A stretch of DNA of 61,863 nucleotides, taken from the NCBI GenBank assembly GCA_022826485.1, contig JAJDUU010000037.1:1-61863 (forward strand). Reading direction: 5' to 3'. The stretch's first letter is position 1; each line of letters starts with the position of its first letter. This document shows positions 11,145 to 31,222 of the stretch, piece by piece. The DNA comes from Chloroflexota bacterium. Its GTDB lineage: Bacteria; Chloroflexota; UBA11872. The position numbers were made by a program, and so were the translations under genes. The notes beneath the pieces were generated by a model. It had not been told where the DNA came from. It was given only the letters and a program-made list of their open reading frames with translations, and did not search any database.

Positions 11145-11582
11145 TCTGCGTCATTCAGGGCTTGCGGGCCCTGGATTGTCATTCCGATGAAGCGCTTTCC
11201 GCCCGTCCGTCATTCCGGCGAAGAGCCTGCCCCGGACTTGATCCGGGGCCGGAATCCAGGCCCGAAATGGCGCGGACTACCCCACGCGTCGGAGATCGAG
11301 AGTCTTAGATTTCTCACTGCGTTCGAAATGACAGGTGGGGTGATGTGAGCGTGGCGGGGCGATCTCCCGCGACGTGCATTGGCCGGAAACTGGAGACCTT
11401 TGAATAAAGAGGCAAGGGCGACGCATGCGTCGCCCCTACGCGTGGGCTCACAGGTTCAGCGTCCGGTGGATTCCCGCCTTCGCGGGAATGACGGAGGGGT
11501 TTCGCAAAGGTCTCCCTCCGCGGGGACAGGCTTCGCGGGAATGACGGCGGGGTTACGCAGAGGTCTCGAAACTGTGGGGAGA
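11145..11582. repeat. Repeat-packed intergenic region
   Basis: 438 bp with no credible gene. It holds several dispersed repeats: a CCGGACTTGATCCGGGGCCGG element (about 11230-11255), an ATTTCTCACTGCGTTCGAAATGACAG element (about 11309-11334), a perfect 20-bp palindrome at 11416-11435 (GGGCGACGCATGCGTCGCCC), and two overlapping copies of the GGATTCCCGC/GCGGGAATGACGG element (11468-11568). It separates the plus-strand Gfo/Idh gene from the minus-strand DUF3179 gene. Confidence 0.85.
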
Positions 11583-12614
11583 CTAGCCCCCAATGAACGC
11601 GGACTCGGGGTAGAAGTCGCGCCAGGCCCAGTCGAATGCGGATGTCCACGGCACCGGGCTGAGGGCTTGGCCCGCGAGCGGACCGCTGAGGGCCAGGCCG
11701 TTGGCGGCACTCCAGAGCGTGCCCGTCTCGCGATCGCGCAGAGTGTCGTCGCCCGCCGCCTCGAAGTTGAGCAGGCGGTCCGCCACTCGCCGCAGATAGG
11801 CCCGCACGGTGCCGGTCGCCTCATCCACCCAGACCATCACGGGTGCATCGCCGACCGTCAGCTGCACCAATCCCGCCAATCGCGCGTGGCTGAAGTCGAC
11901 GGCCGCGGCAGCGTCTCCCAGGGCGAGGCCGATCACCCAGTTGTCGCGCGGCGTCGCCAGGATGACCCGCGGTCCGCTGAGGCCGTTTGACAGCACCAGC
12001 GCGTAGGGATGGCGTGCGCTAAACCCGGACCAGGTGTCAAGCGTTGCGGGAAGCTGCCTGAGCGTCGCGCCCCGCAGCTCGCCGACCAGGGCTCGGCCAA
12101 TGGGCTGGCTCCAGATGCTGCCGGTCGCATGGTCGAACCACGTCATGGCGGTTTTGTACAGCGCGCCCTGGTTGCCAAAGACCAGCGTCTGGCCCTCGAA
12201 CCGCCGGTCGTGCACGAGACCGGTGTAGCAGAGCGGTCACCAGCTAACGAGCACCGGCGTGCCGCCGACGACGTCGTTGACCATCTCGCGGCGGTTGAGC
12301 GAAGTGACGGGATAGGCGCGGGCCTCGCCGTTGATCACGAGTCCAATGACCAGCTCATCCGGCTGGAGCGGCGCGTCGGCGGCGGGAACGAACTGCGGGG
12401 AATAGATGGGCGCGATGGCGTCGCGGCTTAGGCGCTGGTCGTAGGCCGAATCGAACATCATCCGCTCGTGCGGATCGGGGAGGTCCCGGGGCGGCCGCGT
12501 GGTCCGCGGCGCCTCCGGCGAGCCGCGTATCGCCCAAGCCAGGGCCAATGCACCCAGGACGACGAGGGTCAGGCCGAACGCGACCGATGCCGCGATCCCT
12601 AGTCGACGCCGCAT
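11583..12614 (-). CDS. DUF3179 membrane-anchored protein, candidate selenoprotein (UGA = Sec126)
   Basis: 343 codons with one in-frame TGA at 12237-12239 (codon 126). Residues 1-30 form a basic start and a hydrophobic anchor; the DUF3179 domain follows (INGEARAYPV, MVNDVVGGTPVLVSW). After the TGA the same frame resumes with PLCYTGLVHDRR, FGNQGALYKTAMTW and TGSIWSQPIG, all DUF3179 landmarks, to residue 343. The family consensus at the break is VxxCPLC, so TGA replaces exactly the first Cys of a CxxC site, giving Sec126-x-x-Cys129. A 6-bp hairpin begins 13 nt after the UGA. The alternative is a nonsense mutation, but both halves are otherwise intact. The function of DUF3179 is not established; a redox or metal role is inferred from the motif. 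It lies 55 bp downstream of the Lon-like gene on the same strand. Confidence 0.75.
12204..12239 (-). promoter_or_regulatory. Candidate bacterial SECIS hairpin after in-frame UGA
   Basis: On the mRNA: UGA (12239-12237), 13 nt, a perfect stem CCGGUC (12223-12218), an 8-nt loop UCGUGCAC, and GACCGG (12209-12204). The apical loop, which contains a GU, begins 19 nt after the UGA, within the spacing known for bacterial SECIS elements. A GC-rich genome makes short stems common, so this supports the selenoprotein reading but is not independent proof. Confidence 0.5.
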
Positions 12615-12669: not shown

Positions 12670-14271
12670 TCAGCGCAGCGCGACCTGCAGCGCTTGCGCG
12701 AGGTCGTCTACCGGAATGAACGTGATGTCGTCGTGGATTCTGGGCGGAAGGTCGTCGAGGTCGCGCTCGTTGCCGCGCGGCAGCAGGACGCGACGCACGC
12801 CGGCGCGATGGGCCGCGAGCACCTTGGGAGCGACGGCGACCGTGGGCTCGATGCGACCGTCTACCGACAAGCTGCCCGTGGCGGCCAACTCGGGATCGAC
12901 GGGGCGATCGCGAGCCAGTGACACGATGGCGATGGCGACGGCAAGGCCTGCCGAGCCCGAGTCACCGGCCAGGGTGCTTCTCGGCGCTTGCACATGCATG
13001 TCGAACTCTTGCAGGAAGCGCGCCGACACCTGTAGGTCCGAGAGTCGCCCGCGGATTGCCGACGTCACGACCGCCAGATCGTTGGAGACGTTGGCCCCGG
13101 TCGTGTCGAGCATCGTAATCCGACCGAACCCGGGAACGAGGGCATGGCCAAGTCCGGGCATGAGCACCGCCGTCACGTCGCCGCGCCGGCCGCCGTGCTG
13201 ATCGACCACCAAGGCGGCTGACTGACCGAGCCGCTGCGCGCGACGGTCGCGACGCTCGGGGACGGGCGGCCTGCCTGCGAGGTCAAACAGGTGCTCGCTC
13301 TCAATGACACTTGGAGAAGCGTCGCCGCCCAGGGTGTTGGCCACCAGGGTCCGTCGTATAACCCGCCGTAGCAGCTCGTCCAGGCGGGCGACGCCGGCCT
13401 CGTCCGTATAGCTACGGATGAGCACCAGCAGGGCGTTTCCGTGAAACGTCAGGGCATCGGGAGTCAACCCATGATCGGCGAGGGCGGCAGGAATCAGGGT
13501 GCGCCGGGCCAACTCGGCTTTCTGATCGATCAGGAAACCAGGGAGCTCCGCGAGGTCGAGTCTCGAGAGGTCGTCCGTCGCGAGCGGTTGGGTCCAGCGG
13601 CAGGTGACAACCAGAAGGACTCGCGACAGGTCGAACGGAACGCCGAAAAATGGGTCGAGGACGTTGGCGCGCCGGTGGGGGTCTGTCAGTCGCGCGAGGA
13701 GCGCGCTGGCCTGGGAGCCCCAACGCTCGGCCGCGCGATCGATCCCGGTCAGCACGATCACGGCCTCTGCGGATTGCGCCCGCTCAACGGCGCCCATGAG
13801 CGCGCCTGGCTGTCGGTCGCGCCGCCAGATCTCCTCGGCTGTGCCGAGTTGCGCCAGGTCAATGACCTCGCACGGGCGATCCAGGGCCCGAGCCGTCGAC
13901 CGCGCGACTGCCGTCTTGCCCACGCCATTGGGTCCGTGCAGGCAGAGCAGACGCGTTGGTGAGTGCGAGGCTTGGTCAGCGGATGCCTGGGCGTAGTGAG
14001 CCGTCACGTGCTCGGCGATGGCGGCCACGGCTTGCGGGGGCGCGGAATGCTCGGACTCCAGGGCGTTTCGCACCGGAGCGATCGCGAGTGGTCGTGCCTG
14101 GCCGGGCGTCCACGGCAGCGCGATGGCGCGCGCGACGCCAGCGGAAGAGGCGCTGTCATCATCCAGGCGCGCGGATAAGGCTTCGACCGCCTCGTCGGGC
14201 AAATCGGCCTCGGCGAGGCGAGTCCGCAGGTCGGCTGAATCCACCGTGCACTCCACCCCGGCGATACGCAC
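12670..14271 (-). CDS. Short Lon-like ATP-dependent protease
   Basis: 533 aa against about 800 for classical Lon; the N-terminal substrate domain is absent. AAA module: Walker A G113-T120 (GPNGVGKT), a Walker B-like strand ending at D178 (VIVLTGID), and the Lon signature VLDPFFGVPFDLSRVLLVVT (204-223). Protease module: catalytic Ser440 in GDSGSAGLAVA and Lys483 in APKVLAAHRAGVRRVLLP. The sequence around the Ser is divergent (DSGSAG for DGPSAG). GTG start at 14271. It probably degrades a limited set of cytosolic substrates. It lies directly upstream of the DUF3179 candidate selenoprotein and may be co-transcribed with it. Confidence 0.85.
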   Translation of the reverse strand: MRIAGVECTVDSADLRTRLAEADLPDEAVEALSARLDDDSASSAGVARAIALPWTPGQARPLAIAPVRNALESEHSAPPQAVAAIAEHVTAHYAQASADQASHSPTRLLCLHGPNGVGKTAVARSTARALDRPCEVIDLAQLGTAEEIWRRDRQPGALMGAVERAQSAEAVIVLTGIDRAAERWGSQASALLARLTDPHRRANVLDPFFGVPFDLSRVLLVVTCRWTQPLATDDLSRLDLAELPGFLIDQKAELARRTLIPAALADHGLTPDALTFHGNALLVLIRSYTDEAGVARLDELLRRVIRRTLVANTLGGDASPSVIESEHLFDLAGRPPVPERRDRRAQRLGQSAALVVDQHGGRRGDVTAVLMPGLGHALVPGFGRITMLDTTGANVSNDLAVVTSAIRGRLSDLQVSARFLQEFDMHVQAPRSTLAGDSGSAGLAVAIAIVSLARDRPVDPELAATGSLSVDGRIEPTVAVAPKVLAAHRAGVRRVLLPRGNERDLDDLPPRIHDDITFIPVDDLAQALQVALR

Positions 14272-29594: not shown

Positions 29595-30049
29595 TGGGCG
29601 AAGCCTCGGGCCTGGACCGAATTGAGAGCGCGTTCAATAGCGCATTCGACCACTGGGACATTTGCCTCCCACCGGAGGCCATCGCGTCCCGGCAGGCCGG
29701 GCGAATCGTCAAGAGCGGCTGGACCGTCTGGTTCGCCTTCGGCGCCGAAGCCGGCGCCGAGTATCTCGACTACTACGCCAGCCACCGGATGACCAACGAC
29801 CGGCACGTGCGCCTCCACGCCGACGGTCGTGTGGAAGGACTCGAGGCGATCAACGAAATGTACGTCGTTCCCGATGATCCCGATGAAGCCGCGCAGGTCA
29901 AGGCCGACTTCCACGCACGCAACCGGGACGTGCGACGCATGCTTGACGAGAAGGGTTTCACGCTCGACGGCGTGGTGCACCCGAGCGTTTCGCTCAATCA
30001 CTATCTGCTGACTGGGGGAGCGGTAGAGGACGACGAAACCGAGCCATAG
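29594..30049 (+). CDS. Small uncharacterised protein coupled to the TIM-barrel gene
   Basis: 151 aa. GTG start at 29594 overlaps the preceding TAG (TAGTG), implying translational coupling. Soluble and acidic, with EYLDYYASHRMTNDRHVRLH and HPSVSLNHYLLTGG; the segment SGWTVWFAFG precedes it. I do not recognise the family. Its tight coupling suggests it works with, or on the product of, the upstream enzyme. Confidence 0.7.
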   Translation: MGEASGLDRIESAFNSAFDHWDICLPPEAIASRQAGRIVKSGWTVWFAFGAEAGAEYLDYYASHRMTNDRHVRLHADGRVEGLEAINEMYVVPDDPDEAAQVKADFHARNRDVRRMLDEKGFTLDGVVHPSVSLNHYLLTGGAVEDDETEP

Positions 30050-30064
30050 CGTCGGCCTCGGCCG

Positions 30065-31222
30065 CTAGGGTGCCCCGTCTCTCTCCCGCCGCATCCGCTC
30101 GCTGAAGAGGGCATCGGTGAGGTTCGTGCCTTCGAGCACCGCGTCGGTCAGGTCCGCGCCGATCAGCTCGGCGCCAGTGAGGTTGGCGTTGGTGAGGTCG
30201 GCGTCTTGCAGCAGCGCGCCGTCCAGATTCGATCCCGAGAGATTGGCGTCGGTGAACTGCGCGCTGCGCAAATCGGCGTTCGTAAATGCCGCGCGGATCA
30301 GCTCGGCGCCGCTGAAATCGGCGTGCTGGAGGTTTGATCGACGGAATCCCACAGCAAACGTCCGCGTATCGGCCACGATGGCGTGCGAGAAGTCGCCGTC
30401 GTCGAAGACCGAAGCGCGAAGGTTGGCGCCGCGAAAGTCGGCGCTGGTTCCGAATTCCTCGTAGCCGGAGAAGTCGGACCCCATGAGCAGCGTGCCCGAC
30501 ACGGTGATGTCGGTGAGCACGGCGCCGCTGAAGTCGGTGCGGCGAAACTCGGACCCATACACCTGCATGCCGCTCAATTGCGCCTGGGAGAAGTTGGACG
30601 CGTAGACGTCCGTGTTGATGATCAGCGCGTCGCGCAAGGCGCCGCCCGACATGTCGACGCGAATCATGGTCGAGTTGGTCAGTTCGACATTGCTGAGATC
30701 CGCGCCCGGCAGACGGGTGCTGTAGAACCGCGCTCGGCTGAGCTCGGCGCCGTGCATGTCGATATTGGCTGCGACGGAGTTGTCCAGTTCGATCCAGGAG
30801 GCGTTGACGGTGCGCAGGCTGGCATCGCTGAGGTCGGCGTTTTGCAAGTTCGCGCCGGTCATGTCGGCGTCGTCGAATCGAGCGGCGATCAGCCGAGCTC
30901 CACGAAACGTGGCCGCATAGACGTTGGCCTCGGACAGATCGGCGCCGTCCAGCGTGGCCTCGATGAAGTCGGCGAACCGAAGGTCCGCGCCGCTGAGGTT
31001 GGCGCCGGACAGGTCCGCGCCGGAGAAGTTCGAGTCGCGCAGGAACGCACCGGAAAGGTCGGCGTCGGCGAGGTCGCTCTCGGGGCAGCTGGTGGGATCG
31101 TCACGCCAAACCACGGTGAACTCGGACTGAATGGTGCAGGCGCCCACGACCGCGAACGGCTGGCTGATCACCAATCCCACGGCCAGGGTGGCAATTCCCA
31201 GAACCGCCAGCGCGAATGTCAA
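30065..31222 (-). CDS. Secreted or membrane-anchored pentapeptide-repeat protein
   Basis: 385 aa. Residues 1-30 form a hydrophobic signal/anchor (LAVLGIATLAVGLVISQPFAVV). From about residue 50 to the end it is a right-handed quadrilateral beta-helix of A(D/N)LSG-type pentapeptides (ADLSGANLSGADLRFADF near 67-84; DADLTNANLTGAEL near the C terminus), about 60 repeats. Two cysteines (C29 and C46) flank the start of the helix. Pentapeptide proteins often act by mimicking DNA or as structural surfaces; no specific role can be given. Convergent with the 29594 gene, with only 15 bp between. Confidence 0.88.
   Translation of the reverse strand: MTFALAVLGIATLAVGLVISQPFAVVGACTIQSEFTVVWRDDPTSCPESDLADADLSGAFLRDSNFSGADLSGANLSGADLRFADFIEATLDGADLSEANVYAATFRGARLIAARFDDADMTGANLQNADLSDASLRTVNASWIELDNSVAANIDMHGAELSRARFYSTRLPGADLSNVELTNSTMIRVDMSGGALRDALIINTDVYASNFSQAQLSGMQVYGSEFRRTDFSGAVLTDITVSGTLLMGSDFSGYEEFGTSADFRGANLRASVFDDGDFSHAIVADTRTFAVGFRRSNLQHADFSGAELIRAAFTNADLRSAQFTDANLSGSNLDGALLQDADLTNANLTGAELIGADLTDAVLEGTNLTDALFSERMRRERDGAP

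Follow-up and report, generated by a model that had tools for sequence, protein, structure and literature searches.

The stretch of Chloroflexota DNA analyzed here (the window, 61,863 nucleotides) carries on its minus strand a gene at positions 11583-12614 that comprises 343 codons and a terminal TAG, and that contains a single in-frame UGA at codon 126 (12237-12239). Translation with this UGA read as selenocysteine (Sec) gives a protein of 343 residues, which matches the Pfam family DUF3179 (PF11376) with an E-value of 5.5e-63 and 213.5 bits, the cut-off being 27. A profile search of the raw genome placed DUF3179 similarity on both flanks of the TGA. The codon lies in the motif S-W-U126-P-L-C129, in which codon 129 (12228-12230) provides the second Cys; in an alignment of 31 homologues both positions are invariant Cys columns, codon 129 being Cys in all 31. 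These results bear out a previous sequence-only reading of this DNA, which had described one in-frame TGA in an otherwise intact DUF3179 gene, with family matches on either side, falling exactly on the first Cys of a motif whose second Cys is kept. Residues 5-30 (12525-12602) form a hydrophobic, predicted helix at the N-terminus, probably a membrane anchor or an uncleaved signal. The window was also scanned for TGA codons flanked on either side, in one frame, by codon composition resembling that of genes; four further hits were the ends of ordinary neighbouring open reading frames, and 12237-12239 alone was found inside a domain. Three more DUF3179 genes are present in the source genome, all of them with Cys at the position of codon 126.

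Directly upstream, on the same strand and separated by 55 nt, lies a gene for a Lon-type protease (12670-14271; Lon_C, E 5.2e-32), and the two genes are possibly carried on one transcript. The same gene order occurs at a locus of a sister species (L059) and was seen only within the genus. Elsewhere, DUF3179 genes are found next to genes for myo-inositol phosphate synthase, an M32 peptidase, isocitrate/isopropylmalate dehydrogenase, an HpcH aldolase or an MFS protein, and no conserved neighbour was found across the lineages compared. As the Lon gene is a genus-only companion and the neighbours in other lineages are unrelated, the neighbourhood was rejected as a clue to function. The intergenic region at 11460-11575 contains repeated 'ttcgcgggaatgacgg' units that resemble a dispersed repeat.

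We then considered the conservation of the UGA codon. Full-length orthologues that carry the single TGA were found in five other genomes of the genus (84-87% identity), and the nearest named records are the Chloroflexota MAGs RHO3_bin_74, COS3_bin_17 and jk18xAbins.3. TGA at codon 126 was also found in a second family of the order (three genomes), in a further family of the class (two genomes) and, further afield, in distant Chloroflexota including Dehalococcoidia, in two Acidimicrobiia MAGs and in one Spirochaetaceae MAG (family labels f2, f5 and f22 denote UGA-type copies outside the genus); these counts are not all independent, because the genome set and the named records may overlap, with L059, L060 and L061 matching, and perhaps duplicating, L030, L034 and L033. 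The f5 genomes have at least two UGA-type copies apiece, and in one Chloroflexota genome two such genes face each other within a span of about 2 kb (L049, G065:C31:102856-104952). In comparisons within the genus, the part of the gene behind the UGA has a dN/dS of 0.14-0.28, versus 0.15-0.32 for the part before it, and the changes fall mostly in third positions. Judged by these substitutions, the protein after the UGA is under purifying selection, and the decay of the downstream frame that was looked for in relatives was not found.

A mistake in sequencing or assembly, or a recent nonsense mutation in a gene that is being lost, would in one genome be indistinguishable from what is seen here, as a single TGC to TGA change suffices. 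However, the same TGA recurs in the five other genomes of the genus and in many distant ones, purifying selection continues past the codon, and a covarying hairpin lies behind it; conservation of the TGA and dN/dS past it led us to reject this explanation, to which we attach almost no probability. Reading UGA as a sense codon genome-wide, for instance as Trp or Gly, would also place UGA at a conserved residue, but homologues have Cys at this position instead of Trp or Gly, selABCD are present, and TGA is the stop codon of the same gene in three sister species (L031-L033). Because of these terminal TGA codons, internal and terminal UGA are told apart, and neither error, nor a pseudogene, nor general reassignment fits; the last was rejected on this ground and hardly comes into consideration. 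Moreover, no other read-through gene with an in-frame TGA was seen in the whole window. A DUF3179 match in a genome of the same order (G022:C42:24011-24454) contains one in-frame TAG, not TGA, and could represent either a pseudogene or an error.

The alternation of UGA with UGC and UGU at codon 126, which the sequence-only reading had proposed to seek in relatives, was observed: UGA-type homologues have TGA, while Cys homologues have TGC or TGT, as in genus g2 of the same family. Loss of Sec decoding was rejected as the origin of the Cys form in g2, because this genus still has selA. In a tree of 43 proteins, of which 22 have Sec and 21 have Cys, three state changes are required, and the g2 Cys clade and an Acidimicrobiaceae Cys paralogue fall among Sec rows. 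With the root not fixed and some branches long, this topology fits an old Sec form that changed to Cys later. The Acidimicrobiaceae paralogue belongs to a tandem pair of DUF3179 genes in one MAG (L065:1642-3852), one with UGA and the other with TGC, which suggests that Sec gave way to Cys once the gene had been duplicated.

The machinery for Sec insertion was searched for in the source genome, an assembly of 52 contigs that is about 96% complete. All four components are present, namely selA (492.7 bits), selB (292.4 bits, or 312.4 together with its neighbour), tRNA-Sec (selC; 71.3 bits, UCA anticodon) and selD (378.9 bits), and tRNA-Sec was found in six of six genomes of the genus. The selD gene (contig C17, about 29870-30823; locus L016:1477-2430) has UGA at its own catalytic position, in the context SPGAG-U-ACKLSPTEL, which brings the UGA selenoprotein genes of the source genome to two or more.

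Downstream of codon 126 lies a SECIS-like hairpin, CCGGUC-UCGUGCAC-GACCGG (12204-12223, minus strand), that is found in every UGA homologue of the window's lineage. It starts 13 nt past the UGA, its apical loop starts 19 nt past it, and in this Chloroflexota type it consists of a 6-bp stem and the 8-nt loop UCGUGCAC. In f5 and f22 the hairpin reads CGGGCAU-CGUGU-AUGCCCG, with CGGGAAU-CGUGU-AUUCCCG in one genome and U-G for a C-G pair in one copy, and in the Acidimicrobiia and Spirochaetaceae MAGs it reads CGGCGAU-GGUCC-AUCGCCG. Because the loop registers of the two hairpin classes are offset by one nucleotide, the classes were not pooled into one alignment. In the second-register group (10 sequences), 70 of 70 cells are paired and seven are changed on both sides; this result was reached by none of 500 shuffles, and versions slid along the sequence pair at 23-47%. 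Cys homologues (n = 11) show 39% pairing at the hairpin position. Every UGA copy has the hairpin, with compensatory changes between lineages, and the hairpin is absent from Cys copies except the tandem Cys paralogue of L065, which retains it apart from one pair that has become G-U. The retained hairpin resembles a leftover from an ancestor with Sec, and SECIS-like relics within Cys genes have a published precedent (PMC1794560).

Additional evidence comes from synonymous codon choice. Between families, UGA copies have the same codon at six or seven of the seven positions 131-137 (five to six of six in the Acidimicrobiia/Spirochaetaceae group), compared with a codon agreement of about 0.30-0.57 at other residues shared by the same families; the same sequences recur across these pairwise tests, which are hence non-independent. 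Cys copies show no excess at codons 131-137. Folding of the window sequence alone was not better than shuffles: the minimum-energy fold suggests an extended lower stem round the hairpin (12192-12234, -19 kcal/mol, z -0.57) that is not beyond chance, and, measured against synonymously recoded versions of this one gene, the energy reached a P of only about 0.02. As the single-sequence fold is not significant, the evidence for the hairpin had to come from comparison. This comparison supplies the SECIS-like signal after the UGA for which the sequence-only reading had recommended a search.

We also compared the hairpin with the published bSECIS model, which specifies a loop of 3-9 nt, an upper stem of 4-16 bp, 16-37 nt from UGA to loop, a G at one or both of loop positions 1 and 2 and a minimum free energy of -7.5 kcal/mol or lower (PMC13188914, Fig. 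2A). Stem (6 bp), loop (8 nt), spacing (19 nt) and energy (-10.6 kcal/mol for the hairpin alone) all lie within these ranges. The first G of the minimum-energy loop UCGUGCAC, in contrast, is at position 3, outside the first two positions; alternative pairings with loops CGUGC and UGCA satisfy the G rule at -7.4 and -6.9 versus -10.6 kcal/mol, and the loops of other lineages, CGUGU and GGUCC, satisfy it as well. The review that presents the model notes that some bSECIS elements fall outside it (PMC13188914). The bSECIS of E. coli fdhF is likewise an in-frame hairpin just past the UGA, and the GGUCC apical loop of the Acidimicrobiia and Spirochaetaceae copies is shared with it, whereas the window class differs in its 6-bp stem and in its loop of 8 nt, UCGUGCAC, where G does not occur before position 3.

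In the proposed mechanism, SelB carrying Sec-tRNA(Sec) would bind the hairpin just past codon 126, and Sec would be inserted at the UGA to give the full 343-residue protein, as its conservation supports. Leaky readthrough, or two polypeptides of 125 and 210 residues without any role for Sec, could be suspected since an open reading frame of 210 codons with a GTG start (12215) sits right behind the UGA. Against this, U-P-L-C-Y-T-G is conserved around the UGA and the hairpin is conserved at the synonymous level, one domain with a continuous predicted fold spans the codon, and relatives have Cys there; a split gene is disfavoured by the frozen synonymous codons 131-137, and we consider either variant very improbable. 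The Sec insertion proposed in the sequence-only reading is instead supported by selABCD, the UGA/UGC/UGU alternation, the covarying hairpin and the intact downstream frame. From these comparisons, the gene at 11583-12614 very probably encodes a membrane-anchored DUF3179 selenoprotein.

Regarding structure, the predicted model (pLDDT 86.4, pTM 0.79) has the N-terminal helix of residues 5-30 followed by two similar beta-rich halves, a likeness that is also apparent as second matches in several homologues. Residue 126 closes predicted strand 119-126 of the first half, so that Sec126 and Cys129 would be paired as U-x-x-C where a beta-strand ends. A search for solved relatives by sequence found none. 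Rieske ferredoxins are the top Foldseek neighbours (5bok, E 4.6e-3, TM 0.64 by target); because the matches have E-values of 4.6e-3 and worse, none reaching 0.001, the Rieske likeness is a lead only. No thioredoxin fold was found among the top 50 structural hits. A match in a viral structure library, to the uncharacterised Indivirus ILV1 protein A0A1V0SD44 (E 5e-8), is uninformative on function; judged from the models, a DUF3179-like fold may exist in a giant virus.

As the best reading, we favour a protein that is exported, anchored in the membrane and equipped with a redox pair of the U-x-x-C type. Located outside the cytoplasmic membrane, this pair would most likely be a redox centre of the selenol/thiol kind, in which Sec attacks and Cys129 resolves, and a redox role is probable judging from the motif. 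It is also conceivable that the selenoprotein is real and its U-x-x-C holds a metal in a rubredoxin- or Rieske-like manner instead of performing thiol exchange: CP-x-C is a common metal knuckle, and the Rieske ferredoxins head the structural neighbours. Nevertheless, the structural matches fall short of E 0.001, the 31-homologue alignment has neither an invariant His nor a second invariant Cys pair, and to our knowledge Sec seldom persists where it would be a simple Fe-S or Zn ligand, all of which makes a metal site unlikely. The redox pair has counterparts in Trx-like, DsbA-like and Prx-like UxxC selenoproteins, which also have U-x-x-C and switch between Sec and Cys among relatives; the window protein differs from them in its two predicted beta-rich halves and lack of a thioredoxin fold. 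A more far-reaching proposal, that the window belongs to a distinct SECIS class, strictly conserved throughout the Chloroflexota, in which SelB reads CGUG within an 8-nt loop and not a G at the loop start, and that the two Rieske-like repeats of DUF3179 give Sec a redox or metal site that no studied selenoprotein has, is speculative and improbable.

In the open-access literature searched, only three papers name DUF3179. The sequence-only reading knew of no established DUF3179 selenoprotein, but a literature check corrected this: DUF3179 (pfam11376, UxxC/T) already stands in selenoprotein lists, credited to Zhang and Gladyshev 2007, from the deltaproteobacterial symbiont of Olavius algarvensis (PMC9312934, PMC13188914). 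Since two reviews include it, the gene does not represent a new selenoprotein family. Going by the review descriptions, the listed protein shares the Pfam family and Sec in UxxC with the window copy, which differs in belonging to a Chloroflexota genome. A Chloroflexota DUF3179 selenoprotein is absent from both reviews (PMC9312934, PMC13188914), and no report of one was found in the open-access literature. The novelty lies in the members from Chloroflexota, Acidimicrobiia and Spirochaetaceae, in the support that covariation lends to the SECIS, and in the switching between Sec and Cys.

These results bear on annotation, as such DUF3179 genes are likely split or truncated in Chloroflexota genomes. 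In addition, the Sec/Cys pairs within one family, and the tandem Acidimicrobiaceae pair that shares the hairpin, offer convenient tests of why bacteria keep or drop Sec. Finally, because Sec is widely kept at a fixed site, the CPLC pair would be functionally reactive, and this would give a first functional handle on DUF3179.
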